DNA of 44,272 nucleotides from Conexibacter sp. GTDB lineage: Bacteria > Actinomycetota > Thermoleophilia > Solirubrobacterales > Solirubrobacteraceae. The stretch covers positions 1 through 44,272 of the forward strand of contig JAOPZA010000105.1 of assembly GCA_025964325.1 (NCBI GenBank). The letters run 5' to 3'. The position numbers and the translations under genes are program-made. This document shows positions 15,575 to 31,711 of the stretch, piece after piece. Numbering within the stretch: the stretch's first letter is position 1; each line of letters starts with the position of its first letter. The notes below the pieces were generated by a model. That model did not search any database. It had not been told where the DNA came from and saw only the letters and a program-made list of their open reading frames with translations.

Positions 15575-17902
15575 TCAGTCGCCGCCCAGCGCCGCCGCAA
15601 CCGCGACCTGGCCGAACGCGATGCCGCCGTCGTTCGGCGGCAGCAGCGCGGGCACGAGCACGCGCAGGCCGGCGCGATCGAGCGCGGCCGCGGTCGCCTC
15701 GAGCAGCAGCCGGTTCTGGAAGACGCCGCCCGACAGCACGACGGTGTCGAGCCCCTCGCGGCCGGCGAGCGTGCCGCACGCGGCGGCGGTGCCGGCCGCG
15801 ACGCCGGCGTGGAAGCGCGCGGCGACCACGGCGGCGGGCGTTCCGCGCGCGAGGTCGGCGACGACGGCGCGCACCGTCTCGGCCGCGTCGAGCACGCCGT
15901 CGGCGCGCAGCGGCAGCGGGTAGCCGGCGCTCGCTCGCCCAGCCGCGGCGGGCGATCCGCCGGCGGCCCGCGTCGCGAGCGCCTCCAGCTCGATCGCGGC
16001 CTGTCCCTCGTAGCTCACCTCCGCACGCAGGCCGCAGAGCACGGCGACCGCGTCGAACAGCCGCCCCATGCTCGTGGTCGGCGGCGAGCAGAAGCCGGAG
16101 CGCGCGAGGCCGGCGATCGTCGCCCAGCGCGCCGGATCCACCCGCCCGGCGAGCGCGGGCGGCACGCCCGGATCGTCGCCGAGCGCCTCGAGCAGCCACG
16201 CGCACGCCATCCGCCACGGCTGGCGGACGGCCTGCTCGCCGCCCGGGAGGCGGACGCTGCGGAGGTGCCCGCCGCGCGTGAACGACGCGAGACCGCCGAC
16301 CAGCAGCTCGCCGCCCCACACCGCGCCGTCGAGCCCGTAGCCGGTCCCGTCGAAGATCGCGCCGACGGCGGGGCCCTGCTCGCCGTGCTCCGCCAGGCAC
16401 GCCGCGAGGTGCGCGTGGTGGTGCTGCACGCCGACCAGTCGCACGCCCGCGCGCTCCGCCGCGTAGGCGGTCGAGAGGTAGTCGGGATGGAGGTCGTGCG
16501 CGACCAGCTTTGGCGTGACCGCGAACAGGCGCTCGAAGTGCCCGATCCCGGCGTGGAAGGAGCACAGCGTCTCGTAGTTCTCGAGGTCGCCGACGTGGTG
16601 GCTGACCCATGCACTCGCGCCCTTCGCGAGGCAGAACGTGCTCTTCAGCTCCGCGCCGCAGCCGAGCAGCGGCTGCGCGGCGGCGAGCGGCAGGTCGATC
16701 GCCGCCGGCACCTGCCCGCGCGAGCGGCGCAACGCCAGCGGGCGCCTGCGCCCGGCGAGCTCGACGGTGCGCACGACCGAGTCGTCGGTCCGCGTCTCGA
16801 TCGGGCGGTCGTGGACGAGGAAGCGGTCGGCGATCGCGGCGAGGCGGCTCAGCGCGTCGTCGTCGTCGAAGGCGATCGGCTCGTCCGAGACGTTCCCGCT
16901 CGTCATCACGAGCGGCACGCCGGCGTCCCGCAGCAGCAGGTGGTGCAGCGGCGCGTAGGGCAGCATCAGCCCCAGCTCAGCGACCCCCGGCGCGACCGCG
17001 TCCGCGACATGCGCGTCGTCGCGTCGCCGCACCAGGACGATCGGCCGCGCCGGCGCGCACAGCAGCGCCTCGTCCGCCAGCGCCAGCGCGACGAGCGACC
17101 GCGCGGCCGCGACGTCCTCGACCATCAGGGCGAAGGGGCGGTCCTCGCGGCGCTTGCGCGCGCGCAGCGCGCCGACGGCCTCCTCGTCGTCGGCGCGGCA
17201 GGCGAGGTGGTAGCCGCCGATCCCCTTGACGGCGACGATCCGCCCGGCGAGCAGCGCCCGTGCCGCCGCCGCGACGGCGTCGAGGCCCGCGTGCGCGATC
17301 GGCGTGCCCTCCGCGTCGAGCAGGCGCGCCCGCGGCCCGCAGTCCGGGCAGGCGTTCGGCTGGGCGTGGAAGCGGCGGTCGAGCGGATCGTCGTACTCGG
17401 CCTGGCAGCGCGCGCACATCGCGAACGACGCCATCGTCGTGAACGGGCGGTCGTAGGGGATGTCCCGCACGATCGTGAAGCGCGGGCCGCAGTTCGTGCA
17501 GTTGACGAACGGATAGCGGTGACGCCGATCGGTCGGGTCGAGCAGCTCCGCGAGGCAGTCCGCGCACGTCGCCGTGTCGGGCGCGACGGGCGCCTGCGGC
17601 GGACCGCCGCGCGCGCTGGCGGCGATCGCGAAGCCGCGCTCGCCAGTCGGCGCCAGCTCCTCGCGCAGGATCCGCCGCACGCGCGCGAGCGGCGGCGCGT
17701 CGGCGTCCAGGCGCACGAGGCAGGCCTCGACCGCCGCCGCCGGCCCCTCGACCTCCAGCAGGACTCCGCGCTCGTCGTTGAGGACGTGTCCGGCCAGCCC
17801 CAGCTCGCGCGCGAGGCGATAGGCGAACGGACGGAAGCCGACGCCCTGAACCGTCCCCTCGACGCGGGCGCGCACGCGGCGGGATGAGCGAGTCGCCGTC
17901 AT
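15575..17902 (-). CDS. hypF: carbamoyltransferase HypF
   Basis: HypF (775 residues, normal length) makes the cyanide ligands of the [NiFe] centre from carbamoyl phosphate, loading thiocarboxamide onto HypE. Domains in order: acylphosphatase (VEGTVQGVGFRPFAYRLA, residues 14-31); two C4 zinc fingers (C113/C116 with C135/C138, and C163/C166 with C185/C188); a YrdC-like domain (VKGIGGYHLACRA through LMLPYAPLHHLLL, MTSGNVSDEP); and a Kae1/TobZ-like carbamoyltransferase with VQHHHAHLAACLAEH, FDGTGYG and LSGGVFQN. It is the last gene of the operon: its ATG overlaps the SIS gene stop (ATGA). The frame stays open far upstream of 17902, but family alignment sets this start. No evident terminator follows. 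Confidence 0.97.
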   Translation of the reverse strand: MTATRSSRRVRARVEGTVQGVGFRPFAYRLARELGLAGHVLNDERGVLLEVEGPAAAVEACLVRLDADAPPLARVRRILREELAPTGERGFAIAASARGGPPQAPVAPDTATCADCLAELLDPTDRRHRYPFVNCTNCGPRFTIVRDIPYDRPFTTMASFAMCARCQAEYDDPLDRRFHAQPNACPDCGPRARLLDAEGTPIAHAGLDAVAAAARALLAGRIVAVKGIGGYHLACRADDEEAVGALRARKRREDRPFALMVEDVAAARSLVALALADEALLCAPARPIVLVRRRDDAHVADAVAPGVAELGLMLPYAPLHHLLLRDAGVPLVMTSGNVSDEPIAFDDDDALSRLAAIADRFLVHDRPIETRTDDSVVRTVELAGRRRPLALRRSRGQVPAAIDLPLAAAQPLLGCGAELKSTFCLAKGASAWVSHHVGDLENYETLCSFHAGIGHFERLFAVTPKLVAHDLHPDYLSTAYAAERAGVRLVGVQHHHAHLAACLAEHGEQGPAVGAIFDGTGYGLDGAVWGGELLVGGLASFTRGGHLRSVRLPGGEQAVRQPWRMACAWLLEALGDDPGVPPALAGRVDPARWATIAGLARSGFCSPPTTSMGRLFDAVAVLCGLRAEVSYEGQAAIELEALATRAAGGSPAAAGRASAGYPLPLRADGVLDAAETVRAVVADLARGTPAAVVAARFHAGVAAGTAAACGTLAGREGLDTVVLSGGVFQNRLLLEATAAALDRAGLRVLVPALLPPNDGGIAFGQVAVAAALGGD

Positions 17903-19146
17903 GGGGAATCCCGCGCGCCGGAAGAACGAGGCCTCTGGCCGAGCGATTCCACGAGCGCGCGCAGCGCGTGGTACGCCGTCGCCTGCGCCTCCTGGATGCG
18001 CGGGATGTGCTCCGAGCGGCTGACGACGACGTGGTCGGCGAGCGCCTCCGCGGCGACGCGGCCGCCGTCGTAGCCGACGAGCGCGATCGTCGCGACATCG
18101 CGACGTCGCGCCTCGCGCAGCGCCTCCAGCACGCTCAGCGAATTGCCGCTCGTCGAGAGCGCGATCAACGCGTCGCCGGGCCGCGCGTGCGCGATCACCT
18201 GCCGCAGGAAGATCGCGTCGGTGCCGATGTCGTTCGCGATCGCGGTCAGGATCGCCGCGTCCTCGGTCAGGTCGAGCGCCCGCCGCGGCGGACCGCCGCC
18301 GAACGGCGCGTGGAAGTCGGCGACGACGTCCATCGCGTCGGTCGCCGAGCCGCCGTTTCCGAGCGCGAGCAGTCGCCCGCCCGCATCGAGCCGCGTGCGC
18401 AGCATCGCGGCGGCGGCGAGCAGCTCGTCGTGGTGCTCGGTCAGCGTCTGGACGCGCAGCGCCGACACCTCCTCGGCCTTCATCAGGACCGAGGCGCGCA
18501 CGTCGGCGACGACCGCCTCGAGGTCGTCCTCGCGCTCGTCGAGGAACGGGTAGAGGAAGCTCGACGCGCCGCTGTCGTGGTGGGAGCGCGTGGCGCGGCC
18601 GGCGAGCAGCCCCCGGTGGTCGAAGAAGACGTGCACGAGCTCCCACAGCACGTGGTAGGCCGTCTCGACCAGCTCCTGGCGGGCGAACGCGTCGCTGGCC
18701 TCGACGGGGACGAGCTCCCATTCGGCGCCGGACCCGTGCACGAACGCGAGCGTCAGGCTGCCGCGCTCGCGCGCCGCCGCCAGCGCCGCGAGCGTGTCGG
18801 ACTCGGCGCCGAATGCGATCGCGATGTCGCCGGCCTCGACCTCGAGCGCGACCTGCGCCGCCAGCGGACCGCCCTCACCCGCGAGCCCGAGGGCGGGCAG
18901 CGCCCGCTTGCCGACGATCACCGGATGGACGAACTCGACGGCGACGTGGCGCACGTCGGAGCGCGCGGCCGGCGTGGAGCCGAAGGCGACGAGCCGGCCG
19001 CCGCCCGCGAAGCGCTCGGCCATCCGGTGGCACAGCCGCGCGATCGACTCGGCCTCGCGCGAGAAGAAGGCGGCGTTCGCGTCCGTGCGCTGCGCCAGCA
19101 GGGCCGCGATCTGCGCAGCCGCCGCCGGCGTCTGAAGCCGCTCCAT
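17899..19146 (-). CDS. double SIS-domain protein of the hydrogenase operon
   Basis: A 415-residue soluble protein made of two SIS (sugar isomerase) domains. The N-terminal half (about 1-195) has the fold pattern (GRLVAFGSTPAARSD, GDIAIAFGAESDT) but lacks the Ser/Thr-rich phosphosugar loop. The C-terminal half (about 210-400) is GmhA/DiaA-like with GNGGSATDAMDVVADF and ALSTSGNSLSVLEAL, the intact phosphosugar-binding loops, and an E-x2-H-like helix at the end. SIS genes recur in actinobacterial hydrogenase loci, but I know of no assigned role. It starts by TGATG overlap with hypB and ends by ATGA overlap with hypF, so it is translated with the maturation genes. Confidence 0.88.
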   Translation of the reverse strand: MERLQTPAAAAQIAALLAQRTDANAAFFSREAESIARLCHRMAERFAGGGRLVAFGSTPAARSDVRHVAVEFVHPVIVGKRALPALGLAGEGGPLAAQVALEVEAGDIAIAFGAESDTLAALAAARERGSLTLAFVHGSGAEWELVPVEASDAFARQELVETAYHVLWELVHVFFDHRGLLAGRATRSHHDSGASSFLYPFLDEREDDLEAVVADVRASVLMKAEEVSALRVQTLTEHHDELLAAAAMLRTRLDAGGRLLALGNGGSATDAMDVVADFHAPFGGGPPRRALDLTEDAAILTAIANDIGTDAIFLRQVIAHARPGDALIALSTSGNSLSVLEALREARRRDVATIALVGYDGGRVAAEALADHVVVSRSEHIPRIQEAQATAYHALRALVESLGQRPRSSGARDSP

Positions 19147-19832
19147 CACGCGGCGACCGTCGCCCGCCCCGGCAGCGCGGCGAGCCACGCGCGGAAGGCC
19201 CCGACGCTCTCGCCGGTGCGCGCGCTCACGAGCATCCGATCGACGCCGGGGTTGACCTGGTCGAGGTTCGCCTGCAGCCGCTCGACGTCGAAGTCGAGAT
19301 GCGGGAGCAGGTCGACCTTGTTGATGATCACGAGCTCGCAGGCGCGGAACATGAGTGGGTACTTGAGCGGCTTGTCCTCGCCCTCGGTGACGGAGCAGAC
19401 CATGATCCGCGCGTCCTCCCCGACGCGGAACTCGGCCGGGCAGACGAGGTTGCCTACGTTCTCGATCACGAGCAGGTCGAGCTCCGCGAGCGGCAGCGAC
19501 GGCAACGCCGAGCGCACCATGTTGGCGTCGAGGTGGCACTCTCCGCCGAAGCCCGCACCGGTGTTGAGCTGCGTGACGGGGACGTGCAGCAGCGAGAGCC
19601 GGTCGGCGTCGAAGCTGCCCTGCACGTCGCCTTCGAGCACGCCCGCGCGGACGCCCGCGTCCGCGAGCCCGTCGAGCGCCCGCTCGAGCAGCATCGTCTT
19701 GCCGGCGCCCGGCGCGCTCATCAGGTTGACGACCGTCACGCCGGCGCGCGCGAAGTCCTCGCGGTTGGCGCGCGCGATCGTGTCGTTGGCGTCGAGGACG
19801 TCCTCGACGACCCGGACCTTCGTGCGATGCAT
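19146..19832 (-). CDS. hypB: hydrogenase nickel incorporation GTPase HypB
   Basis: HypB (228 residues) is the GTPase that, with HypA, inserts nickel into the large subunit. The P-loop is SAPGAGKT (39-46); the GEC-H nickel/zinc site is C99-H100 in GAGFGGECHLD; ENVGNLVCP and NKVDLLP (G4) are present. There is no N-terminal histidine-rich nickel store, so the cell relies on imported nickel, fitting the NiCoT gene at the operon head. It begins nine bases after the stop of the 36-residue gene (19842) and overlaps the SIS gene by one base. Confidence 0.97.
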   Translation of the reverse strand: MHRTKVRVVEDVLDANDTIARANREDFARAGVTVVNLMSAPGAGKTMLLERALDGLADAGVRAGVLEGDVQGSFDADRLSLLHVPVTQLNTGAGFGGECHLDANMVRSALPSLPLAELDLLVIENVGNLVCPAEFRVGEDARIMVCSVTEGEDKPLKYPLMFRACELVIINKVDLLPHLDFDVERLQANLDQVNPGVDRMLVSARTGESVGAFRAWLAALPGRATVAA

Positions 19833-19841
19833 CGTGCCTCC

Positions 19842-19952
19842 CTACATCTGGCGGACTCTGAGATAGCGCTGGACCTCGGGCATCTGACTCTTCGCCATCA
19901 GGCCGATGCCGGCCAGCAGCACGAGCGTCGTCAACGGCGCGGACTTCTTCAT
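19842..19952 (-). CDS. small single-helix membrane protein, DUF6893-like, 36 residues
   Basis: A 36-residue protein beginning MKKSAPLTTLVLLAGIGLMA: a short basic start, one hydrophobic helix, then a polar basic tail (PEVQRYLRVRQM). The Shine-Dalgarno GAGGAGG is excellent and the ATG overlaps the stop of the protease gene (ATGA), so it is translated. From memory it matches the actinobacterial small-protein family DUF6893 found in hydrogenase loci. It might anchor the otherwise soluble enzyme to the membrane, which is inference. Confidence 0.72.
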   Translation of the reverse strand: MKKSAPLTTLVLLAGIGLMAKSQMPEVQRYLRVRQM

Positions 19953-20806
19953 GACCCGTCCTCCTCTCGTTGCTCGTCGTTCCCGGACGACTCCGCCGAC
20001 AGCTCGGTCATCAGCTCGCCGATCAGCGACTCGACCAGCTCGACCGCCGCGCTGGCCGCCGCGCGCGCGGTCGGGCTCAGCTCCATCACGATCCGCTCGT
20101 CGTCGGGCGCGAGGATCACGTCCGGCTCGCAGCCGACGACGAGCACGCGCGCCGGCAGCGTTCCGAGCACGCGCGCGAGCGCGAGCACGCGAACGGGATC
20201 CATCCCGTGCGCGTCCGGCACCGCCTGCGGCCCCTCCTCGGCGTCGAGCTGCGGCTCGATCACGTAGAGCGTGCCGGGCGCCTTGCCGCGCGGCACCGCG
20301 TCGACGAGCAAGGCCGCGTCCCAGTCGTCCTGCAGCTCGTAGGCGAGGTCCATCCCGCGGATGCCGAAGTCCTCGACCTTGACGCCGGCGGGCAGCTCGC
20401 GCTGCGCCAGCAGCCGCGCGACCTCGACGCCGAAGCCGTCGTCGGCCAGCAGCACGTTGCCGATGCCGGCGACGAGCACCTGCGGCGCGCCCGGCGCGAG
20501 GCCGGCGCCGAGCGGCTCGACCTCGTCGGCGGCGAAGAAGAAGCGATGGCCGGGCTGGCGCGCGATGCCGAGGTCGCGGCCGGGGTCGTCCTCGAGCACG
20601 ACGGCGAGCTGAACGCTGCCGTCGAGCTCCTCGTGGAGCGACTCGACGACCGCCGTGCGGCCGTCCAGCGCGAGGTCGAAGACGTCGCCGCGGCGCCGGC
20701 CGCGCGGATGCAGGTGGACGAGGCTGCCGCGGCCGACGAGGATCCCGCCGATCGCCACCGCGCGGGGGGCGCGGCCCTCGAGGGCATCCCATCCGGGCGT
20801 GCTCAC
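19949..20806 (-). CDS. hydrogenase maturation protease with extra N-terminal domain
   Basis: A 285-residue fusion. Residues about 105-260 are the HyaD/HybD/HycI-type endopeptidase that trims the large-subunit C terminus after nickel insertion. GIGNVLLADDGFG (114-126) with D123, D169 in LLVDAVP and H200 in DAHGMDP match the three nickel-sensing ligands (usually Glu, Asp, His). The first 100 residues form an extra beta-rich domain with HLHPRGRRRGDVFDLAL and RTAVVESLHEELDG, absent from the short family members. The start is the GTG at 20806, overlapping the upstream stop (GTGA). Its target should be the large subunit at 24247-26040. Confidence 0.9.
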   Translation of the reverse strand: MSTPGWDALEGRAPRAVAIGGILVGRGSLVHLHPRGRRRGDVFDLALDGRTAVVESLHEELDGSVQLAVVLEDDPGRDLGIARQPGHRFFFAADEVEPLGAGLAPGAPQVLVAGIGNVLLADDGFGVEVARLLAQRELPAGVKVEDFGIRGMDLAYELQDDWDAALLVDAVPRGKAPGTLYVIEPQLDAEEGPQAVPDAHGMDPVRVLALARVLGTLPARVLVVGCEPDVILAPDDERIVMELSPTARAAASAAVELVESLIGELMTELSAESSGNDEQREEDGS

Positions 20807-21819
20807 GGCCGCCGCACCTGCAGCTCGCGGATCGTCCCGTGGAGGCGCATCAGCTGCTCGGGCGAGAGCGCCTCGGTGCGTTCGAGCACCTCGCGCGCAC
20901 GCGGATCGGAGGCCCGCATCTCGGCCTTCTCCTCGTCGGTCAGGCTGAGGATGTTGAGGATCAGCAGCTGGTCGATCTCGCCGCCGTCGAACAGGTCGCC
21001 GGGGCTCTCCGGCGCGATCCGCGGATGGTCCTCGAGGATGATCGGAGAGGACAGCAGCGTCGTCCGGTCGCCCTCCTCGCCGACGAGGACCGGCCACGTC
21101 CCACGGCTCTCGCACGCCGCCGCGGCGTCGCGCAGCGCCGCCGGCGGATCGGTCGGCGACGGGAAGGCGCCGCCCGAGACGCGCAGGACGGTGTGCGTCG
21201 AGCAGAACGTGCGTCGCAGCGCGGCAGCGCGCTCGTCGCCGTCCCACGGGGTCGTGTTCTCGATCCGCGCGGTGAGGCGGTGCAGCGCGGGCCCCAGCCG
21301 CTCGGCGCGCACCGCGAGCGTTCCCACGAGCCCCTCCCAGCTGCGCACGAGCCCGCCCGCGGGCCGCCCGTCGGCCTCGTGCAGCGGCTCCTCGCTGTGA
21401 CCGGCCGCGACCGCGATCGGGACCTCGAGGCCGCCGGTGAGCTGCGCGGGCGTGAGCGGCGCGGTCGCGACCTCGCGCTCGACCGCCTCCTCCCACGTCA
21501 GGTGACGCTCGCCGCCGACCGCCAGCTCGTCCACCGGCCGGCCGCGCGCGTCGAGCGCCTGACGCCAGACGACGTGGAGGAAGCGCACGGCGACGGCGAC
21601 CGCGAGCTCGGCCGCGTCGCCCTCGACGAGGCACTGCGTCTGCATCGTCCACGGGTCGTCGCCGGCCGCCCGCGCCTCGCTGTGCGCGCGCGGGTAGACG
21701 CCGCCGAACGTCCAGCGCTGCTGGTTCTTCAGGGCCGAGCGGCGGTAGGGCCACAACACGTAGCCCTCGTAGAGGACCGCGTCGGCGATCGCGCGGATCG
21801 GGTCGGCGCCGGCGGTCAC
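20803..21819 (-). CDS. uncharacterised hydrogenase-operon protein, 338 residues
   Basis: I do not recognise a named domain. The protein is soluble, with no signal or membrane segment and few cysteines. It begins near LYEGYVLWPYRRSALKNQQR, has a central VRFLHVVWRQ and IENTTPWDG, and ends in an acidic/helical part (LLILNILSLTDEEKAEM, LSPEQLMRLHGTIREL). The GTG start overlaps the previous stop (GTGA) and its own stop overlaps the protease start, so it is an integral member of the operon. I recall similar unnamed proteins beside group 1h hydrogenases in other actinomycetes. A scaffold or assembly role is a guess. Confidence 0.75.
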   Translation of the reverse strand: MTAGADPIRAIADAVLYEGYVLWPYRRSALKNQQRWTFGGVYPRAHSEARAAGDDPWTMQTQCLVEGDAAELAVAVAVRFLHVVWRQALDARGRPVDELAVGGERHLTWEEAVEREVATAPLTPAQLTGGLEVPIAVAAGHSEEPLHEADGRPAGGLVRSWEGLVGTLAVRAERLGPALHRLTARIENTTPWDGDERAAALRRTFCSTHTVLRVSGGAFPSPTDPPAALRDAAAACESRGTWPVLVGEEGDRTTLLSSPIILEDHPRIAPESPGDLFDGGEIDQLLILNILSLTDEEKAEMRASDPRAREVLERTEALSPEQLMRLHGTIRELQVRRP

Positions 21820-22523
21820 GCGCGCCCCTCGGCGCCGTCGATCAACGCGTCCATCGTCGCCTCCCAGCTCGTCAGCGCGCGCCGCGCGCGGAAGGCCGCA
21901 AGCCGGTCGAAGGCGGTGCGGTCGAGCCGGACCCACGCGCTGCCGGGGAAGCGCGTGTCGATCGCGGCGCGCCAGACGGCCACGGGCAGCGAGCACGCCG
22001 CCTCGCGCTCCCACGAGATCCGGCTCGCGCGCAGACGCCCGTCGGAGCTCAGGTCGAAGACCGTCCCGCTGAAGAGCAGCTCGAGCGGGACGGTGCCGTC
22101 CCGCAGCGCCGCCAGGTACTGCGCCGCGCCGACCTCGAAGTCGTACGTGCACGGCACGTCGAGCTGCGCGACCGTCGTGCCGTCGAAGGGCGGCACGACG
22201 AGCGTCGCCTGCAGCCACGGCAGGCTGCGGAGCGTCTCGCCCCAGCGCGACGGCGCGCCGAACAGCCCCGCCAGCGCCTCCTGCTCCTCCGTCGCGTAGG
22301 CCCGCTGGGTCGCGGAGATGCGGATCTGCACGTCGAGCACGACGGAGCGGATCGGAGCACCGCCCGCGTCGATCGCGAGCGCGAAGCGCAGCGTCGGGGC
22401 GGCGGCCGGGCGCAGCGCCTCGACCCCCGCGACGGCGAACGCCAGCTCCGGCGCAGCCCCGAGGGCGGCCAAGCCGGGCGCTGCGCCGACCGGTCCCGCG
22501 GCTCCCATCGCGCCGCTGCTCAC
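21816..22523 (-). CDS. DUF6084-like hydrogenase-operon protein
   Basis: A 235-residue soluble beta-rich protein. Landmarks are RSVVLDVQIRISATQRAY, ALAGLFG, a WLQATLVVPPFDG block, PCTYDFEV and LLFSGTVF. From memory this is the DUF6084 family that accompanies DUF5947 in actinobacterial hydrogenase loci; function is not known. The GTG at 22523 is preferred because it overlaps the stop of the 67-residue gene (GTGA); an ATG at 22508 would shorten it by five residues. It also overlaps the next gene by four bases. Confidence 0.75.
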   Translation of the reverse strand: MSSGAMGAAGPVGAAPGLAALGAAPELAFAVAGVEALRPAAAPTLRFALAIDAGGAPIRSVVLDVQIRISATQRAYATEEQEALAGLFGAPSRWGETLRSLPWLQATLVVPPFDGTTVAQLDVPCTYDFEVGAAQYLAALRDGTVPLELLFSGTVFDLSSDGRLRASRISWEREAACSLPVAVWRAAIDTRFPGSAWVRLDRTAFDRLAAFRARRALTSWEATMDALIDGAEGRA

Positions 22524-22723
22524 GGCGGCGAGAGGTTCGGCATGCTGGGATCGATCGGATCGCGCGCCCGCGCGTTGATCCCGGTGGAGCGCGCCGCGGT
22601 CGAGCGGCCATCGGGCAGGTGACCGGGCATGCGCTCGTAGGCGCCGGGCTCGTGGCCGGTTCTGATGCCGGGCACGTGCGACGGCGCGTCCGGCGCGACG
22701 TCGGGCTTGCCGGTCTTCACCAT
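22520..22723 (-). CDS. small conserved hydrogenase-operon protein, 67 residues
   Basis: A 67-residue polar protein rich in Pro, Gly, Asp and Arg, probably flexible. Segments DAPSHVPGIRTGHEPG, MPGHLPDGRSTAARSTGIN and DPIDPSMPNLSPP look like linear binding motifs. The start has GGAGGAGA upstream. It overlaps the DUF5947-like gene by seven bases and its TGA overlaps the GTG of the DUF6084-like gene, so reading is almost certain. I recall near-identical small proteins in other actinobacterial group 1h loci, without a name. It may act as a linker or chaperone. Confidence 0.72.
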   Translation of the reverse strand: MVKTGKPDVAPDAPSHVPGIRTGHEPGAYERMPGHLPDGRSTAARSTGINARARDPIDPSMPNLSPP

Positions 22724-23367
22724 CGTGTCTCCTCCCGTCTGGGCAGGTCATCGAAGAAAAGCGCGATCGCGCGCCATACGTCCTCGCCGCCGCTGAACCC
22801 GCGCCAGCGACTGCGGATGATTCCCACCAGCTCGTAGCAGTCGTCGATCGGCACGCGCCAGTGCTCGTGCATCCCGCGGGCGTGGCTGACGAGCAGCGCC
22901 TCGACGTCGGGCTCGAGCTCGTGGAGCACCGGGTTCGCGGCCGCCAGCTCCTCCCACGCCTCCAGCGCCAGCAGCGACTCGGTCGCGCCCATCGGGCTCG
23001 GGTACAGCGCGACGATGCGACCGGCCGGGCTGCTGTCGAAGAAGAACGCCATCTCGACCGGGATCCGCAACCGCTCCCAGGTGGCGTCGTCGAACGCGAA
23101 GCCCTCGAGCCGCCGGCGCCCCAGCGGCACGAGCCGCAGGTGGCCGCCGCCGGCGGCGGGGCGGTCGAACAGCAGCGTGCAGGCGCGGCACGCGCACAGC
23201 AGGCGGCGGCGCTCGACGTCGACGAGGTGGCGATGCTCGGGCGGGACCGCCTCGCCGCAGAGGTCGCAGCGCTCCCCCAGCGCCGCGGCCGACTCCGCCG
23301 CCTCCTGGGAAGGCGACGCGGCCGGAGCCGGTGCGCCGCGCGCGAGCTGAGCGAGGCGCGAGGGCAC
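22717..23367 (-). CDS. DUF5947-like protein with cysteine-rich N terminus
   Basis: A 216-residue soluble protein. After an Ala/Pro leader, C34-x2-C37 and a C58-x-C60-x2-C63 group form a likely zinc- or iron-binding knuckle (GERCDLCG and LLCACRACTLLF). The rest contains FAFDDATWERLRIPVEMAFF, YPSPMGATESLL and WRVPIDDCYELVG. It matches my memory of DUF5947, a family restricted to hydrogenase operons of this kind. Start is the GTG at 23367, three bases after the NifU/Rieske gene stop. If it binds iron, it could serve electron transfer between the hydrogenase and the quinone pool, which is inference. Confidence 0.78.
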   Translation of the reverse strand: MPSRLAQLARGAPAPAASPSQEAAESAAALGERCDLCGEAVPPEHRHLVDVERRRLLCACRACTLLFDRPAAGGGHLRLVPLGRRRLEGFAFDDATWERLRIPVEMAFFFDSSPAGRIVALYPSPMGATESLLALEAWEELAAANPVLHELEPDVEALLVSHARGMHEHWRVPIDDCYELVGIIRSRWRGFSGGEDVWRAIALFFDDLPRREETRW

Positions 23368-24246: not shown

Positions 24247-26040
24247 TCAGCCGCCGCTGTGCGCGCCGAGCATCGGCGAGTGCAGCTGCTTCAGCGTCTT
24301 GCCGCCGCCGAGGTACATGTGCACGCCGCACGGCAGGCAGGGGTCGAAGCTGCGGACCGCCCGCATGATGTCGATCCCGCGGAAGTCGTCGGGCCCGTTC
24401 TCCTCGAAGATCGGCTGGCCGGCGACCGCGTCCTCGTACGGCCCTGGCGTGCCGAACGAGTCGGTCGGGCTGCCGTTCCACGGCGTCGGCGGGTACGGGT
24501 GGTAGTTCGCGATCTTCTTGTCGCGGATCACGAGGTGGTGCGAGAGCACGCCGCGGACGGCCTCGTGGAAGCCGCAGCCGATCGCCTCGTCGGGGACCTC
24601 GAAGTCCTCGAACACCTTCGTGACGCCCGAGCGCACCTCTTCGAGCCCCTTCTCGACGAAGTGCAGCGCCATCGCCGCCGAGTAGGCGATGAAGTACACG
24701 CGCGCGCGGTCGCGCTCGATCGCGTTGGACCACTGCGGGATTCTCCACTCGAGCTCCGTCGCGGCCGAGTTCGGCGTCGCGGGCAGCGAGATCCGGACGC
24801 TCGAGCCGGTCGCGTTGACGTACGGCGTGTGGACCTTGTCGGCGAGCGCCGTCGCCCACAGGCGCGCGAGCGCGCCGCCGCCGGTGTCGAGCGCCAGGTG
24901 GTCGCCGGTGCGTCTGTCGTACCAGCGCGGGCTCATCACCCACGAGTAGTTGCCGCCCTCGAGGTCGCGTCTCTGCGGTCTCGGCAGCGTCGTCTGGTTC
25001 CACGGATGGCGGCGGTCGACGGGGTTCCCGAGCGGGTCTCTCTCGACGAACATCTCCTCGTTCGTCCAGTCGTCGTAGTAGGAGCTGCCGAGCAGGATTC
25101 GGATGCCGAGGTTGATCTCGACGAGGTTGGTCGTGATCAGCTCGCCGTCGACGATGATGCCGGGGGTGACGAACATCTCGTCGCCCCATTGCTGCATGTG
25201 GCGGTAGTCGTAGTCGACGTAGTCGGGGTTGTTCCACGCTCCCCAGCAGCCGAGCAGGATCCGACGCCGGCCGACCTCCTCGTAACCGGGCAGCGCCTCG
25301 TAGAAGAAGTCGAACACGTCCTCGTTCATCGCGACGGCCTTCTTGATGAAGTCGAGGCAGCGCAGCAGCCGCATCAGGTAGTCGGTGAACAGCTGCGGCG
25401 TCGCGACCGTGCCGACCCCACCCGGATAGATCGTCGAGGGATGGACGTGGCGTCCCTCCATCAGGCAGATCATCTCGCGGGAGATGCGGCTGATGACCAG
25501 CGCCTCGCGGTAGGTCTCGCCGGTGAACGGGTTGTACGAGCGCATGATGTCCGCGATCGTCCGGTACCCGTGCGTCGCGGCGCCCGGCGCCTCGGCTCTC
25601 TCCGCCTTCTCCATCACGCTCGGGTTCGTCGACTGCACCATCTGCTCGCAGAAGTCGACGAAGACGAGGTTGTCCTGGAAGATCGTGTGGTCGAAGATGT
25701 ACTCCGCCGCCTCGCCGAGGTTCACGATCCACTCGCCGAGCGGCGGCGTCTTGACGCCGTACGCCATGTTCTGCGCATACATCGAGCAGACGGCGTGGTT
25801 GTCGCCGCAGATCCCGCAGATGCGGCTCGTGATGAAGTGGGAGTCGCGCGGGTCCTTGCCCTTCATGAAGACGCTGTAGCCGCGGAACAGCGACGACGTG
25901 CTCTTGCAGGTGGCGACCTGTCTCTGTCTGAAGTCGATCTTGGTGTAGATGCCGAGGTTGCCGACGATCCGGGTGATCGGATCCCACGACATGTCGACGA
26001 GTCTGCCTGCTTCAGGTTCGATGCGCTCGCGCGTGGCCAT
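24247..26040 (-). CDS. hhyL: [NiFe]-hydrogenase large subunit, group 1h
   Basis: The catalytic subunit (597 residues) holding the Ni-Fe(CN)2CO centre. The L1 motif is RICGICGDNHAVCS with C75 and C78; the L2 motif is FDPCLPCGVHMYLG with C568 and C571. L2 has CGVH rather than the CTVH of group 2a, and L1 has GDNHA, both marking group 1h (former group 5), the actinobacterial high-affinity type. A 23-residue tail follows H574 and would be removed by the operon's protease. No Tat or Sec signal exists, so the enzyme is cytoplasmic-side. A strong GGAGAGGACGGAGA region precedes the start. It oxidises H2, probably at atmospheric level. Confidence 0.96.
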   Translation of the reverse strand: MATRERIEPEAGRLVDMSWDPITRIVGNLGIYTKIDFRQRQVATCKSTSSLFRGYSVFMKGKDPRDSHFITSRICGICGDNHAVCSMYAQNMAYGVKTPPLGEWIVNLGEAAEYIFDHTIFQDNLVFVDFCEQMVQSTNPSVMEKAERAEAPGAATHGYRTIADIMRSYNPFTGETYREALVISRISREMICLMEGRHVHPSTIYPGGVGTVATPQLFTDYLMRLLRCLDFIKKAVAMNEDVFDFFYEALPGYEEVGRRRILLGCWGAWNNPDYVDYDYRHMQQWGDEMFVTPGIIVDGELITTNLVEINLGIRILLGSSYYDDWTNEEMFVERDPLGNPVDRRHPWNQTTLPRPQRRDLEGGNYSWVMSPRWYDRRTGDHLALDTGGGALARLWATALADKVHTPYVNATGSSVRISLPATPNSAATELEWRIPQWSNAIERDRARVYFIAYSAAMALHFVEKGLEEVRSGVTKVFEDFEVPDEAIGCGFHEAVRGVLSHHLVIRDKKIANYHPYPPTPWNGSPTDSFGTPGPYEDAVAGQPIFEENGPDDFRGIDIMRAVRSFDPCLPCGVHMYLGGGKTLKQLHSPMLGAHSGG

Positions 26041-26067: not shown

Positions 26068-27117
26068 TCAGTTGGGCCACCGCGGCTGGTAGCCGGTGGT
26101 GAGCTCGTCCTTGTTGTGGCGCCACTTGGGCTCTTTGTTGACCGTCTTGTTCGTGATGCTGCGGAGTCTCCGGATCACGGGGCCGTAGAGGCCGGTGATC
26201 GCGGACGAGACGCCGCCGCCCGGAGGCGCGTCCATGAACGGCATGAACTTGTCGGGGAAGCCGGGCATCGTGCAGCCGATGCAGATGCCGCCGACGTTCG
26301 GGCAGCCGCCGACCCCGTCCATCCAGCCGCGCTTGGGGACGTTGCAGTTGACGACCGGCCCCCAGCAGCCCGCCTTGACGAGGCATCTGGGCGAGTTGTA
26401 ATCGAGCGCGAAGTCGCCCTGCTCGTAGTAGCCGGCGCGGTCGCAGCCCTCGTGGACGGTCTTGCCGAACAGCCACTGCGGCCGCAGCGCGTCGTCGAGC
26501 GGGATCATCGGCGCGAGCCCCGCCGCCTGGTAGAGCAGCCAGGTGAGCGTCTCCATGAAGTTGTCGGGCTGGACCGGGCAGCCGGGCACGTTGACGATCG
26601 GGATGCCGGCGCCGGAGCGGAAGTCCCAGCCGAGGTAGTCGGCGAGGCCCATCGCGCCGGTCGGGTTGCCGGCCATCGCGTGGATGCCGCCGTACGCCGC
26701 GCAGGTGCCGATCGCGACGACCGCCCACGCTCCCGGCGCGAGCTGGTCGATCCACTCGTTGACGGTGATCGGCTCACCGGTCGCGGGGTCGTTGCCCATC
26801 GAGGTCCAGTAGCCGTCGCCGTTGATCTTCTCGTTCGGGATCGAGCCCTCGACGACGAGCACGTACGGCGCGTCGAGCTGGCCGGCGGCGGCGGCGCGGA
26901 ACGGCGCCATGAACTCCTCGCCGCCGAGCGTCGGCGACAGCACCTTGTTGTGCAGGTGCACTCTCGGGAGCCCCGGCACGGCGCCCAGCAGCACGTCCTC
27001 GATCGCGGGCAGCGAGGCCGCGGTGATCGAGACCGAGTCCCCGTCGCAGCTCAACCCCTCCGACGTCCACAGGATGTGGACCTCGGAGACGCCCGCCGCT
27101 CTTGCTTCAGCGCTCAT
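26068..27117 (-). CDS. hhyS: [NiFe]-hydrogenase small subunit, group 1h
   Basis: The electron-transfer subunit (349 residues) with three iron-sulfur sites. Proximal: C24 with D27 (GLSCDGDSV), C139 (GTCAAYGG) and C180 (VPGCPVQPDN); the usual second Cys is Asp, as in the actinobacterial hydrogenase of Ralstonia eutropha. Distal: H222, C225, C245, C251. Medial: C258, C272/C279, C282 region. No twin-arginine leader and no C-terminal membrane anchor, unlike group 1a-1d enzymes. It begins three bases after the hypA stop and lies 27 bp before the large-subunit gene. It passes electrons from the active site towards the Rieske-like partner. Confidence 0.96.
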   Translation of the reverse strand: MSAEARAAGVSEVHILWTSEGLSCDGDSVSITAASLPAIEDVLLGAVPGLPRVHLHNKVLSPTLGGEEFMAPFRAAAAGQLDAPYVLVVEGSIPNEKINGDGYWTSMGNDPATGEPITVNEWIDQLAPGAWAVVAIGTCAAYGGIHAMAGNPTGAMGLADYLGWDFRSGAGIPIVNVPGCPVQPDNFMETLTWLLYQAAGLAPMIPLDDALRPQWLFGKTVHEGCDRAGYYEQGDFALDYNSPRCLVKAGCWGPVVNCNVPKRGWMDGVGGCPNVGGICIGCTMPGFPDKFMPFMDAPPGGGVSSAITGLYGPVIRRLRSITNKTVNKEPKWRHNKDELTTGYQPRWPN

Positions 27118-27120
27118 CGC

Positions 27121-27477
27121 TCATCCGCTCCTCGTCAGCTCGTGCTCCAGTTCGAGCGAGTCCACCTGCAGCTCCTCGCCACTCACGACGGTCACGTCGA
27201 AGCCCCCGCACGCCGGACAGGCGAGCGGGAAGCCGTCCAGCCCGTGCTCGGCCCCGCCGCACGCGCGGCAGGCGATCACGATCGGGACCTCCTCGAGCTC
27301 CAGGCGCGCGTCCGCGACCGGCGTGCCCTCCGCCACCAGCGCGAACGCGAACGTGAGCGCGTCCGGCACGACCTGCCGCAGGTGCCCGACGCGGACGTAC
27401 ACGGCGGTCACGCGCCCGCCCTGCGCATGGGCGCTCGCGACCCGCACGACCGATTCCGCGATCGCGAGCTCGTGCAT
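27121..27477 (-). CDS. hypA: hydrogenase nickel metallochaperone HypA
   Basis: HypA (118 residues) delivers nickel with HypB. The essential N terminus MHE (His2 nickel ligand) is intact, followed by LAIAESVVR. The zinc site has two CxxC pairs, IACRACGG and LACPACGG. VYVRVGHLRQVVPDAL is the conserved beta strand and helix. It lies five bases after hypE and three before the small-subunit gene, an unusual place since hypA is often with hypB, here far downstream. Confidence 0.95.
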   Translation of the reverse strand: MHELAIAESVVRVASAHAQGGRVTAVYVRVGHLRQVVPDALTFAFALVAEGTPVADARLELEEVPIVIACRACGGAEHGLDGFPLACPACGGFDVTVVSGEELQVDSLELEHELTRSG

Positions 27478-27482
27478 CGCGC

Positions 27483-28577
27483 TCAGCAGATCCTCGGCAG
27501 CGGGTCGCCCACCAGCATGTCCATCACGCGCTTGCCGCCGAACGCCGTCTCGAGCAGGACCATGCCGCCCGGCGCGCCGTGGCAGGTGCCGATCTCGGCC
27601 GCCTGCGCGAAGTCGCCGCGCCCGCCGGCCGCGCGCAAGGCGGCGAGCGCGGCGTCGGCCGCCTCCGGCGCGACGACGGCGACGAGCGTGCCCTCGTTCG
27701 CGATGTGCAGGGGGTCGATCCCGAGGATCTCGGCGGCGCCCGCGACCGCCGGGTCGACGGGGACGTCGGCCTCGCGCACGAGCATCGCGACGTCGGCCGC
27801 ACGCGCCAGCTCGTTCAGGACCGAGGCGACCCCGCCGCGCGTCGCGTCGCGCAGGCAGCGCAGCGACGGCCCGGCGGCGTCGAGCAGCGCGTCGACCGCG
27901 GGCCACAGCGAACGCGTGTCGGAGGCGACCTCGGCGTCGAGCTCGAACTCGCCGCGCGCGAGCATGATCGCGGTGCCGTGGTCGCCGACGCGGCCCGAGA
28001 GCAGGATCCGGTCGCCGGGGCGGGGCGCCGCGGGCGAGAGGCTCGCGCGCTCGTCGAGCACGCCGATCCCGGTCGTGCAGATGTACAGCTCGTCGGCGTG
28101 GCCGCGCTCGACGACCTTCGTGTCGCCCGTGATCACCTCGACGCCGGCGGCGCGCGCGGCGGCGGCGATCGCCGCGACCTCGGCCCGCAGGGTCTCCGCG
28201 GGCAGTCCCTCCTCGAGGATCAGCGAGAGGCTCAGCACGAGCGGCCGGGCGCCCGCGACCGAGAGGTCGTTGACGGTCCCGTTGACGGCGAGGTCGCCGA
28301 TCGACCCGCCGGGAAAGCGCAGCGGCCGCACGACGAAGCTGTCGGTCGTGAGCGCGAGGCCGAGCTCCCCGACGCGCACGATGCCGGCGTCCGCGAGCCC
28401 GTCGAGCGCGGGCGACGCGAAGGCGGGCACGAGCAGTCCCTCGATCAGCGCCTGCGTCGCCTTGCCGCCCGCGCCGTGCGCCATCGTGATCCGCTCGTCG
28501 CGGAACTTCGCGCGCTTCGAGCGCGCGGTCTCGATGATGTCGAGGACGCGCTGCTCGCGATCGGAGACGGCATCCAT
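27483..28577 (-). CDS. hypE: hydrogenase maturation protein HypE
   Basis: HypE (364 residues) receives the carbamoyl group from HypF on its C-terminal cysteine and dehydrates it with ATP to thiocyanate, the CN donor. The C terminus is PRIC, exactly as required. An AIRS/PurM-type ATP domain is shown by MAHGAGGKATQALIEG, LALTTDSFVV, GDLAVNGTVNDLSVAGA and ITGDTKVVERG. RDATRGGVASVLNE is the substrate loop. It overlaps hypD by TGATG and is five bases from hypA. Confidence 0.97.
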   Translation of the reverse strand: MDAVSDREQRVLDIIETARSKRAKFRDERITMAHGAGGKATQALIEGLLVPAFASPALDGLADAGIVRVGELGLALTTDSFVVRPLRFPGGSIGDLAVNGTVNDLSVAGARPLVLSLSLILEEGLPAETLRAEVAAIAAAARAAGVEVITGDTKVVERGHADELYICTTGIGVLDERASLSPAAPRPGDRILLSGRVGDHGTAIMLARGEFELDAEVASDTRSLWPAVDALLDAAGPSLRCLRDATRGGVASVLNELARAADVAMLVREADVPVDPAVAGAAEILGIDPLHIANEGTLVAVVAPEAADAALAALRAAGGRGDFAQAAEIGTCHGAPGGMVLLETAFGGKRVMDMLVGDPLPRIC

Positions 28578-29692
28578 CAGACCAGCTCCCGCTCGCGCGC
28601 GAAGCGCCCGTAGTTGTAGTACGCCGCGCACGCCCCCTCGCTGGAGACCATGCACGTGCCGATCGGGCGCTCGGGCCGGCAGGCGGTGCCGAAGACCTTG
28701 CACTCCCACGGCTTGATGACGCCCTTGAGGACCTCGCCGCACTGGCACGCCTTCGGATCGGCGACGCGCACGCCCGGGACGCCGTAGCGCAGCTCGGCGT
28801 CGAAGTCGGCATAGGCGTCGGACAGCCGCAGCCCGCTCTGCGAGATGAAGCCCAGCCCGCGCCACTCGAAGTGCGGGCGCAGCGCGAAGACCTCCGCCAT
28901 CACCTCCAGCGCGCGCAGGTTGCCCTCGTAGGGGACGACCCGGCTGTACTGGTTCTCGACCTCGCAGCGCCCCTCGCTCAACTGCCGCAGCAGCATGTGC
29001 ACGGCCTGCAGCACGTCGAGCGGCTCGAACCCGGCGACGACGATCGGCTTGCCGTACTCGGCCGGGATGAACTCGAACGGGCGCGCACCGACCACGGTCG
29101 AGACGTGGCCCGGTCCGACGAAGCCGTCGAGCCGCAGGTCGGGCGAGTCGAGCAGTGCGCGCAGCGGCGGGACGATCGTCACGTGGTTGCACATGCAGGA
29201 GAAGTTGGTGACGCCCTCGGCCTTCGCCCGCTTGAGCGTCAAGGCCGTCGACGGCGCCGTCGTCTCGAAGCCGATCGCGAAGAAGACGACCTGCCGCCCG
29301 GGGTTCGCCTTCGCGATCCGCAGCGCGTCGAGCGGCGAGTAGACCATCCGCACGTCGGCGCCGGCGGCCTTCGCGTCGAGCAGCGTGCCCGCGGAGCCCG
29401 GCACCCGCAGCATGTCGCCGAAGCAGGTGAAGATCACGCCCGGCTCGTGCGCGAGCGCGATGCCGTCATCGACGCGGCCCATCGGGATCACGCAGACGGG
29501 GCAGCCGGGCCCGTGGACCAGCTCGACGTTGGCCGGCAGCAGGTCGTCGATCCCGTATTTGTAGATCGAGTGGGTGTGCCCGCCGCAGACCTCCATCAGC
29601 TTGTAGTGGCGGCCCGGCTCGACGGCCGCCAGGATCTCGGCGGCGACCGCGCGGCCGAGCTCGGCGTCGCGGAACTCGTCGACGAACTTCAT
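28577..29692 (-). CDS. hypD: hydrogenase maturation protein HypD
   Basis: HypD (371 residues) carries a [4Fe-4S] cluster and, with HypC, assembles the Fe(CN)2CO unit. Conserved motifs: MEVCGGHTHSIYKYG (catalytic Cys), HGPGCPVCVIP, FFAIGFETTAPSTAL, GPGHVSTVVG, and the C-terminal cluster cysteines in DPKACQCGEVLKG and KPWECKVFGTACRPE/GTCMVSSEGACAAY. Full family length. The ATG at 29692 overlaps the stop of the preceding hypC-like gene (ATGA). Confidence 0.97.
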   Translation of the reverse strand: MKFVDEFRDAELGRAVAAEILAAVEPGRHYKLMEVCGGHTHSIYKYGIDDLLPANVELVHGPGCPVCVIPMGRVDDGIALAHEPGVIFTCFGDMLRVPGSAGTLLDAKAAGADVRMVYSPLDALRIAKANPGRQVVFFAIGFETTAPSTALTLKRAKAEGVTNFSCMCNHVTIVPPLRALLDSPDLRLDGFVGPGHVSTVVGARPFEFIPAEYGKPIVVAGFEPLDVLQAVHMLLRQLSEGRCEVENQYSRVVPYEGNLRALEVMAEVFALRPHFEWRGLGFISQSGLRLSDAYADFDAELRYGVPGVRVADPKACQCGEVLKGVIKPWECKVFGTACRPERPIGTCMVSSEGACAAYYNYGRFARERELV

Positions 29693-29961
29693 GCGCGCGC
29701 TCCCGACTGCGCGGCGTGGGCGATCGCGGTGCCGGCATGGACGAGCAGCACGTCGCCGACCGCGACCGGCTCGACGAGCGCGATCTCGACGCTCGCGCGC
29801 GTGCCGTCGGCGTGCTCGCACAGCGCCAGGCCGCGCTCCGCGTCGACTACCGCCACCCGCAACGGAAGCGCCTCGTCGCTGCACGTGATGCAGCCGGCGT
29901 GCGCGGTTTGCCAGGAGCGTCCGTGGTGCTCGCCCGGCACGGGCTGGTCGCAGGCGCTCAT
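29689..29961 (-). CDS. second HypC/HupF-family protein with non-canonical N terminus
   Basis: A 90-residue HypC-type beta-barrel protein. The body (ALPLRVAVVDAERGLALCEH...VEIALVEPVAVGDVLLVHAGTAIAH) is clearly the HypC fold. The N terminus is not the usual MC-[LI]-[AG]: instead about 23 residues precede a GCITCSDEALPL block, so the catalytic Cys would be internal (C24 or C27), and a further Cys is at position 4. Such CITCSDEA forms occur in actinobacterial and cyanobacterial loci as a second chaperone. It overlaps hypC and hypD by ATGA on both sides. Confidence 0.85.
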   Translation of the reverse strand: MSACDQPVPGEHHGRSWQTAHAGCITCSDEALPLRVAVVDAERGLALCEHADGTRASVEIALVEPVAVGDVLLVHAGTAIAHAAQSGARA

Positions 29962-30358: not shown

Positions 30359-30395
30359 TCTCTATCCGACTTCTGGCGCATCGATGTCCGGGCCA

Positions 30396-30423
30396 TTGCG
30401 TTTTGGGCTCGGCGCCGTTAGCG
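30396..30423 (+). promoter_or_regulatory. candidate promoter of the nickel transporter gene
   Basis: TTGCGT (30396-30401), 16-bp spacer and TTAGCG (30418-30423). The match is weak. The gene has its own Shine-Dalgarno (GAGGAG at 30465-30470). Confidence 0.3.
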
Positions 30424-30476
30424 TCGCGCGCGGGCACCGGCCCGTCCGGCGCCGGAGCGCAACCGAGGAGCATCCG

Positions 30477-31625
30477 ATGGCGGCTGACATCCCGGGTCCC
30501 GCGCGCGTGCCGCGGCGGGACCGGCTGCGGGCCGCGCTGACGCCGGCCGAATGGCGCCGCGCCGCCGCCCTCGCCGCCGCGGTGCTCGGCCTCCACGTCG
30601 TCGGGTTCGTGACGCTGCTCGCGTTCGTCGCGCCGCGCCACTTCAGCCTCGGAGCGCAGGGCGTCTTCGGCCTCGGCCTCGGCGTGACGGCCTACACGCT
30701 CGGGCTGCGCCACGCCTTCGACGCCGACCACATCGCAGCGATCGACAACACGACGCGCAAGCTGATGGCCGATGGCCAGCGCCCGCTCAGCGTCGGCTTC
30801 TTCTTCTCGCTCGGCCACTCGACGATCGTCTTCCTGCTCGCGTTCCTGTTCTCTCTCGGCGTGCGCGGGGTGAGCGGCGCGGTCGAGCACGACGGCTCCG
30901 CGCTGCATCAGGCGACCGGCGTGATCGGGCCGCTCGTCTCCGGCTCGTTCCTGTTCCTGATCGGGCTGCTGAACCTCGTGCTCCTGGTCTCGATCGCGCG
31001 CGTCTTCCGGCGCATGCGCGGGGGCGGCCAGGACGAGGCCGAGCTCGAGCGCCAGCTCGACGCGCGCGGGTTCATGAACCGCTTCTACGGGCGCTTCACG
31101 AAGGCGGTGCGGCGCCCGTGGCAGATGTACCCGCTCGGCGTGCTGTTCGGCCTCGGCTTCGACACCGCGACCGAGGTCGCGCTGCTGTTCATCGCCGCCG
31201 GCGCGGCCGCCGGCGGCCTGCCCTTCTACGCGATCCTCTGCCTGCCGATCCTGTTCGCCGCCGGCATGTCGCTGCTCGACACGATCGACGGCGCGTTCAT
31301 GAACTTCGCCTACGGCTGGGCGTTCTCGAAGCCGGTGCGGAAGATCTACTTCAACCTCACGATCACGGCGCTGTCGGTCGCCGTCGCGCTGCTCGTCGGG
31401 ACCGTCGAGCTGCTGTCGGTGCTGGCCGATCGGCTGAGCCTCAGCGGCGGCCTCTGGAGCCTCGTCTCAGGGCTCGACCTCAACCTCGTCGGCTACCTCG
31501 TCGTCGCGCTGTTCGTGCTGACGTGGGCGCTCGCCCTCGCCGTCTGGCGCTTCGGCCACATCGAGGAGAAGTGGTCCTCGAACGCGCCGCGGCGCGCCCG
31601 TCGGGCGGGCGGCGCGTCGACGTAG
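30477..31625 (+). CDS. nickel/cobalt permease, NiCoT (HoxN/NixA) family
   Basis: A 382-residue inner-membrane secondary transporter that imports Ni2+ (or Co2+). The signature helix LRHAFDADHIAAIDNTTRK is complete; the second LGHSTIVFLLAF and third GFDTATEVALL motifs are present, as is LFAAGMSLLDTIDGAFM. About eight hydrophobic helices. A GAGGAG Shine-Dalgarno precedes the ATG. It is divergent from the hydrogenase operon, so nickel supply for HypA/HypB is its likely purpose. An upstream extension of the frame (to 30081) is only read-through over the intergenic region. Confidence 0.94.
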   Translation: MAADIPGPARVPRRDRLRAALTPAEWRRAAALAAAVLGLHVVGFVTLLAFVAPRHFSLGAQGVFGLGLGVTAYTLGLRHAFDADHIAAIDNTTRKLMADGQRPLSVGFFFSLGHSTIVFLLAFLFSLGVRGVSGAVEHDGSALHQATGVIGPLVSGSFLFLIGLLNLVLLVSIARVFRRMRGGGQDEAELERQLDARGFMNRFYGRFTKAVRRPWQMYPLGVLFGLGFDTATEVALLFIAAGAAAGGLPFYAILCLPILFAAGMSLLDTIDGAFMNFAYGWAFSKPVRKIYFNLTITALSVAVALLVGTVELLSVLADRLSLSGGLWSLVSGLDLNLVGYLVVALFVLTWALALAVWRFGHIEEKWSSNAPRRARRAGGAST

Positions 31626-31698
31626 GCGAGGCAGTCGGCAATGCGCTGCCGGCGGCGATCGCGAGACCGCCGCCCTTCACCTCCGGGCGGGGAACACC

Positions 31699-31704
31699 TA
31701 GGAT
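31699..31704 (+). promoter_or_regulatory. leaderless -10 box TAGGAT of the sigma factor gene
   Basis: TAGGAT ends seven bases before a GTG at 31712. An ATG at 31703 lies within this box, so the GTG is the better start if the box is used. Confidence 0.45.
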
Positions 31705-31711
31705 GCCCGAC

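Follow-up and report, generated by a model that had tools for sequence, protein, structure and literature searches.

A candidate maturation module with a mobile SH3-like domain in the group 1h [NiFe]-hydrogenase operon of Conexibacter

A 44,272-nucleotide contig of the soil bacterium Conexibacter sp. (JAOPZA010000105.1, assembly GCA_025964325.1; hereafter the window) carries a group 1h [NiFe]-hydrogenase operon for hydrogen scavenging. Six genes fill positions 19842-23367 of its minus strand, encoding DUF5947, a 67-residue protein (P67), DUF6084, a 338-residue protein (P338), a fused maturation protease and the small peptide DUF6893; all genes claimed for this interval by a sequence-only reading exist. 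This run is probably, though by no means certainly, a module dedicated to maturing and assembling the cytoplasmic hydrogenase rather than a set of extra subunits or a stoichiometric complex. Established here are its gene content, its co-occurrence with group 1h subunits, the mobility of one of its domains, the invariance of metal ligands in one protein and their degeneracy in another, and its operon partners.

P338, a mobile domain and the maturation endopeptidase

The protease gene encodes a genuine two-domain fusion, as had been proposed, in which a domain of about 100 residues (CD) precedes a HycI/HyaD-type endopeptidase. We compared 117 loci, which were chosen by relatedness to group 1h (not an unbiased sample) and in which part of the absences reflect contig ends. 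In 56 loci, CD forms the C-terminal part of P338, the arrangement of most lineages other than the window's; 34 loci have it N-terminal on the protease, and 13 encode it in a separate reading frame. These states changed at least nine times on a quick tree of the large subunit. Because CD fuses to either protein, P338 is linked to the maturation enzyme by Rosetta-stone logic, and this hopping suggests that the two are functionally tied.

AlphaFold2 modelling of a P338-CD protein (locus L106) gave a predicted local distance difference test (pLDDT) score of 86, and CD is predicted to be an SH3-like barrel similar to PetP, PsaE, BAH and KOW. Cytochrome b6f and photosystem I contain PetP and PsaE, respectively, as subunits with such a barrel. 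The predicted CD fold matches PetP (7r0w_V, Foldseek probability 1.00, TM-score 0.78 by target, 2.4 Å; 2n5u, Z 8.1 over 78 residues), with no Pfam sequence match to go with it. CD also resembles nitrile hydratase beta besides BAH and KOW, a common fold that names no function. P338 itself has no Pfam, NCBIfam or PDB sequence match, and PDB sequence searches with DUF5947, DUF6084 and P338 returned nothing meaningful. For the P338 core (L106:12808-14094, residues 20-286), part of the DISARM protein DrmA is a weak structural match (top Foldseek hit 7s9v, E 1.2e-4, Z 8.1 over 168 residues, 4.5 Å), not good enough for us to call the core DrmA-like. A single weak PADLOC match of P338 to SAVED (E 0.0015), missing in a homologue, was taken as chance.

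The large subunit HhyL of the window ends in DPCLPCGVH plus a 23-residue tail. The matched HofG chain of PDB entry 5AA5 stops at DPCxxCxxH, and thus the tail of the Cupriavidus necator large subunit is removed.

A second tie to maturation comes from gene order in Myxococcota. After the end of a HypA-like frame, the minus strand of Minicystis rosea L098 (1-2700) carries a single operon of hypB and the genes for the NifU-domain protein HhyE, DUF5947 and P338, in which hypB overlaps HhyE, and DUF5947 overlaps P338, by ATGA; a second myxobacterium (Kofleriaceae, L131) repeats this gene order. In M. rosea, hhySL and P67 are encoded at another place. The module can therefore pair with nickel-insertion genes instead of structural genes. 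In the window it sits within a complete hyp operon.

Metal ligands of DUF5947 and HhyE

DUF5947 had been read as a cysteine-knuckle protein, which agrees with our results. Its seven ligands (C34, C37, H45, H47, C58, C60, and C63) are each kept in 110-111 of 111 loci, and in the AlphaFold2 model (pLDDT 90.4) residues 29-74 appear knuckle-like, with weak resemblance to an L24e-type knuckle and to the copper chaperone NosL (Z 3-4). No fold match was found outside these residues, which is not proof of a new fold. The ligands of HhyE are far less constant. Across 109 loci its NifU site contains CxxC in 35, CxxxC in 22, a different pair of cysteines in 8 and a single cysteine in 34, and 10 loci lack cysteines there; fewer than two cysteines thus remain in 44, and C. 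necator PHG066 (L066:7723-8301) has none. A rubredoxin-like region is present in 26 of the 109. The HhyE of the window has an intact NifU CxxC and a C-terminal rubredoxin/Rieske-like region with two CxxC motifs. HhyE has been described as an iron-sulfur (Fe-S) protein; given the degeneracy of its NifU cysteines in 44 loci, it is, judged from sequence, no universal Fe-S relay. Ligand conservation makes DUF5947, not HhyE, the candidate for a module protein that requires a metal in every lineage, if there is one.

These sites bear on an alternative that we consider unlikely, in which HhyE and DUF5947 relay electrons from the small subunit to the respiratory chain, P338, DUF6084 and P67 provide a scaffold, and DUF6893 is the membrane anchor. 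The invariant Cys/His set of DUF5947 would suit such a relay, as would an operon without a cytochrome b gene, a hydrogenase without a twin-arginine translocation (Tat) leader, and the resemblance of CD to barrels from electron-transport complexes (PetP and PsaE); moreover, PHG067, a homologue of DUF5947, has been put forward as the acceptor of the electrons, and HhyE and HhyLS co-localise (PMC6883350). It is harder to reconcile with the degenerate Fe-S cysteines of HhyE in many lineages, with the CD-protease fusion and the hypB-coupled arrangement, with the loss of dye-linked activity that accompanies loss of HhyE (PMC6883350), and with the DUF5947 knuckle, which by a weak match resembles a small structural metal site.

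The module proteins might instead be protection factors that keep O2 away from the enzyme, complete or still under assembly, while it matures in air, by analogy with HoxO, HoxQ, HoxR and HoxT of the membrane-bound hydrogenase, an analogy raised in PMC6883350. The organisms are aerobic, HhyE has a rubredoxin-like C-terminus in about a quarter of loci, and no HupGHIJK-type family is found among the module proteins, all of which would fit; most HhyE proteins lack the rubredoxin-like part, however, and we give the idea very little credence.

Distribution, gene order and operon layout

We sampled 296 genomes evenly across the phylum. A profile built for the group 1h large subunit gave 23 full-length matches at 1157-1218 bits in them, against at most 633 bits for other complete subunits; three further genomes have partial 1h subunits at contig ends. 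The HhyL of the window falls in the 1h clade (1174 bits), apart from group 2a and others, and its closest PDB chain is HofG of 5AA5. DUF5947 occurs in 26 of these genomes (25 with 1h, Fisher p 5e-34), DUF6084 in 27 (24 with 1h) and P338 in 28 (25 with 1h), with Fisher p < 1e-29 for each. In three genomes with a module gene and no detected 1h subunit (G195, G222, and G296), the module lies directly at the end of a contig or close to it. Among 72,556 plasmid records, DUF5947 and P338 are found in an identical 12, ten of which also have DUF6084, and clear P67 matches are restricted to genomes with the 1h module. DUF6893 is the sole module protein that we saw away from 1h genes. The collection scan used the large subunit, as the DUF6084 profile was too variable, and its best 80 matches are biased to relatives of the window. 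Short pieces near the 1h per-residue score in genomes without the module (G113:C7:219652-220008, G233:C85:18580-18828, and G136:C20:41947-42159) are possibly decayed 1h loci, and another genome (G270; C11, C296, and C340) seems to hold two 1h loci that differ, P67 being present in just one of them.

The expectation that all five uncharacterised proteins co-occur only with 1h large subunits is therefore nearly perfect for DUF5947, DUF6084 and P338 and fails for the set, since DUF6084, P67 and DUF6893 are each absent from many loci. HhyE is present in 112 of the 117 loci, HhyL and DUF5947 in 111 each, P338 in 108, CD in 103, and the protease in 102; the counts are 88 for P67, 72 for DUF6084 and 61 for DUF6893. 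On the large-subunit tree the presence of DUF6084 and that of P67 changed just twice each, so whole clades do without one or the other. Two genomes (G134 and G177) have DUF5947 and P338 with DUF6084 absent genome-wide, and no weak remnants were found in loci that lack DUF6084. In a Streptomyces/Actinomadura clade P338/CD precedes hhyS, and P67 is the last of the genes downstream. The five genes are not one obligate set, and their proposed fixed position between structural genes and hypB is confined to the window and its close relatives, with order and content varying across loci. In one sequence (G048:C308:28800-30824; L043:7376-8825) HhyE continues in frame via an Arg-Asp repeat into DUF6084, without DUF5947; it lies at a contig end, where fusion and assembly artefact are indistinguishable.

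Start-stop overlaps had been reported along the run and taken as a sign of stoichiometric assembly. Junctions inside the module do overlap, by GTGA at P67/DUF6084, DUF6084/P338 and P338/protease, by ATGA at protease/DUF6893, and by 7 bp or 4 bp at DUF5947/P67, depending on whether P67 starts at ATG or GTG; HhyE and DUF5947 are separated by 3 nt, and DUF6893 and hypB by 9 nt. Elsewhere in the operon hypC/hypD and SIS/hypF can also start at a 4-bp overlap, and in a sample of contigs from the same genome, annotated with a rough gene caller, 40 of 115 close co-directional pairs (35%) allow such a start. Five overlaps in succession exceed the genome average, though single ones are ordinary, and the coupling is for this reason weak evidence for a stoichiometric complex.

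We accordingly regard it as improbable that these proteins are stoichiometric subunits or oligomerisation factors of native Hhy that are lost on purification, for which HucM, the scaffold of Huc, provides a precedent (PMC10017518). Strict co-occurrence would be expected of such subunits, as would the conserved adjacency and overlaps, for instance at HhyE-DUF5947, where 85 of 106 loci allow a 4-bp overlap. Yet whole clades lack DUF6084 and P67, and Myxococcota encode P338 and DUF5947 apart from hhySL. In addition, the AH crystal structure 5AA5, the only 1h-type PDB entry found, was matched solely through its HofG chains and is not known to hold any protein besides HofK and HofG. With overlaps so ordinary and no further subunit known from this entry, the step from tight coupling to stoichiometric assembly is not borne out.

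The two smallest proteins are genuine genes rather than chance open reading frames (ORFs), given that P67 averages 60% column identity in 29 loci and that DUF6893 has a recurrent RYL[KR] motif. P67 matches no Pfam or NCBIfam family, and its strong conservation argues against the mere flexible linker it had been taken for. DUF6893 has the single hydrophobic segment (Kyte-Doolittle mean 1.79 over 17 residues) expected of the membrane anchor suggested before. Its presence changed 16 times on the large-subunit tree, and it also occurs in genomes without a 1h large subunit, beside hypB/hypF (G156, C1:2948819-2948908) or directly behind a HycI protease (G201, C1:2560779-2560853). DUF6893 follows maturation genes even without 1h and is thus no dedicated anchor of the 1h enzyme.

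The operon is a single polycistron of 16 genes running from 29961 down to 15575, in the order hypCDEA-hhySLE-DUF5947-P67-DUF6084-P338-protease-DUF6893-hypB-SIS-hypF (Table 1). The gene for HhyE, which stands between those for the large subunit and DUF5947, was not named in the sequence-only reading. A terminator-like site at 22775-22760 is at chance level (1 found, 1.9 expected). Between hypB and hypF, the SIS-domain gene encodes a phosphosugar isomerase-like protein whose approximately 190 N-terminal residues match no family; the hyp genes of the C. necator and Methylocystis 1h clusters also include SIS genes. A NicO-family nickel transporter (30384-31625, plus strand) is divergent from the operon, and an ORF nearby (30551-32695) encodes Sigma-70 regions 2 and 4 followed by a SnoaL-like domain (31757-32620, plus strand), an ECF-type sigma factor.

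Table 1. Genes and domains of the hydrogenase operon in the window
Feature	Positions	Strand	Evidence
hypC	29689-29961	-	Pfam
hypD	28577-29692	-	Pfam
hypE	27483-28577	-	Pfam
hypA	27121-27477	-	Pfam
HhyS, small subunit	26068-27117	-	twin-arginine leader not found
HhyL, group 1h large subunit	24247-26040	-	1h profile, 1174 bits
HhyE, 288 aa	23371-24237	-	Pfam NifU 82.4 bits (residues 86-151), Rieske 28.4 bits
DUF5947 (PF19372), 216 aa	22717-23367	-	Pfam 244.7 bits (cut-off 25)
P67, 67 aa, polar, end RSTGI..PIDPSMPNLSP	22520-22723	-	conserved ORF without family
DUF6084 (PF19562), ~235 aa from GTG at 22523	21816-22526 (stop-to-stop frame)	-	Pfam 263 bits (cut-off 25)
P338, 338 aa	20803-21819	-	no Pfam or NCBIfam family
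CD, ~100-aa predicted SH3-like barrel, residues 6-103 of protease gene product	20498-20791	-	fusions and predicted fold
HycI/HyaD maturation endopeptidase with N-terminal CD, 285 aa	19949-20806	-	TIGR00072 120.9 bits (cut-off 47.45), PF01750 50.2 bits (cut-off 23); residues 111-261
DUF6893 (PF21833), small membrane peptide, 36 aa, SAPLTTLVLLAGIGLMA	19842-19952	-	Pfam 32.9 bits (cut-off 24.6)
hypB	19146-19832	-	Pfam
SIS-domain gene	17899-19146	-	Pfam
hypF	15575-17902	-	Pfam

A maturation model, its precedents and its meaning

Hyp proteins build the NiFe site. For the protein-protein contacts and biochemical steps around it we infer the following model. P338 would be a beta-rich scaffold that holds the immature large subunit; CD, free or carried on P338 or the protease, would bring the endopeptidase to it, and the endopeptidase would cut off the 23-residue tail after DPCxxCxxH. 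DUF5947 would be a metal-binding factor, acting in Fe-S or metal handling or in quality control, and a partner of HhyE, DUF6084 and P67 may be lineage-variable co-chaperones, and DUF6893, which travels with the protease and hyp genes, may keep the maturation site near the membrane. Maturation is favoured by the protease link, the hypB-coupled operon, the loss of cysteines from HhyE, the processed 5AA5 chain, the place of the window's module in a complete hyp operon, the neighbourhood of DUF6893 to hyp or protease genes in genomes without 1h, and the phenotype of an hhyE deletion in Mycobacterium smegmatis, which abolishes even dye-linked activity (PMC6883350).

Several points weigh against a maturation role. 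Native gels of M. smegmatis show HhyE together with HhyLS, as would fit a subunit or an electron carrier (PMC6883350). Methylacidiphilum 1h enzymes are reported to function without HhyE, and also without homologues of the hypothetical proteins that are thought to be electron carriers in Pyrinomonas (PMC7174314, PMC6688271); the module is therefore typical rather than universal, and parts of it are dispensable for some 1h enzymes. In most lineages the module genes adjoin structural and not hyp genes, both solved-structure searches yielded just weak or single-domain matches, and fusion and adjacency are association, not mechanism.

The closest known system is the AH cluster on pHG1 of C. necator H16 (PHG064-PHG070), which has the order HhyS-HhyL-NifU-DUF5947-DUF6084-P338/CD-protease with similar overlaps. 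It differs from the window in that PHG069 is a P338-CD fusion and CD is not on the protease, no P67 was found, the hyp genes follow as hypF-C-SIS-D-E-A-B, and the HhyE homologue has no NifU-site cysteine. An earlier study had listed PHG066-069 as four ORFs of unknown function (PMC4377017), and hhaABC of Thermomicrobium roseum (trd_1876-1874) have been published as conserved hypotheticals, co-upregulated in the hhyLS operon (PMC6776052). PHG067, PHG068 and PHG069 are the DUF5947, DUF6084 and P338/CD genes of C. necator, and hhaABC probably correspond to DUF5947, DUF6084 and P338. With both sets published as conserved unknowns, the suggestion of an undescribed system does not stand. In M. smegmatis, HhyE is essential for Hhy (operon MSMEG_2722-2718), and MSMEG_2717, the gene that follows, encodes a homologue of the DUF5947 protein PHG067; in the published view HhyE or PHG067 takes the hydrogenase electrons, with an assembly role left possible (PMC6883350).

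As a functional analogue we propose the HoxMLOQRTV/HupGHIJK sets of group 1d, hydrogenase-specific factors beside a protease and hyp genes, although P338, DUF5947, DUF6084 and P67 have no Pfam match to the HupGHIJK/HoxOQRTV families. Tentatively, and with rather more doubt than confidence, we suggest that P338 and the mobile CD are an unrecognised kind of maturation factor, an endopeptidase adaptor and large-subunit chaperone, that DUF5947 is a metal-handling factor that together with them replaces the HupGHIJK-type set in 1h, and that HhyE is mainly an assembly protein, not an electron carrier. New here are the CD shuffling, the coupling of HhyE-DUF5947-P338 to hypB in Myxococcota, and the contrast between HhyE and DUF5947 ligands. 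We found no mention of the shuffling or of this contrast in the literature searched, which left out most subscription papers, so priority is not established.

Group 1h hydrogenases are a main sink of atmospheric H2, and the module bears on how these enzymes are built and how they hand over their electrons. If the module proteins act in maturation, making active Hhy in another host would require DUF5947 and P338/CD besides the Hyp proteins, and the electron acceptor should be sought elsewhere than in HhyE and DUF5947. The CD fusion pattern points to one concrete candidate contact.

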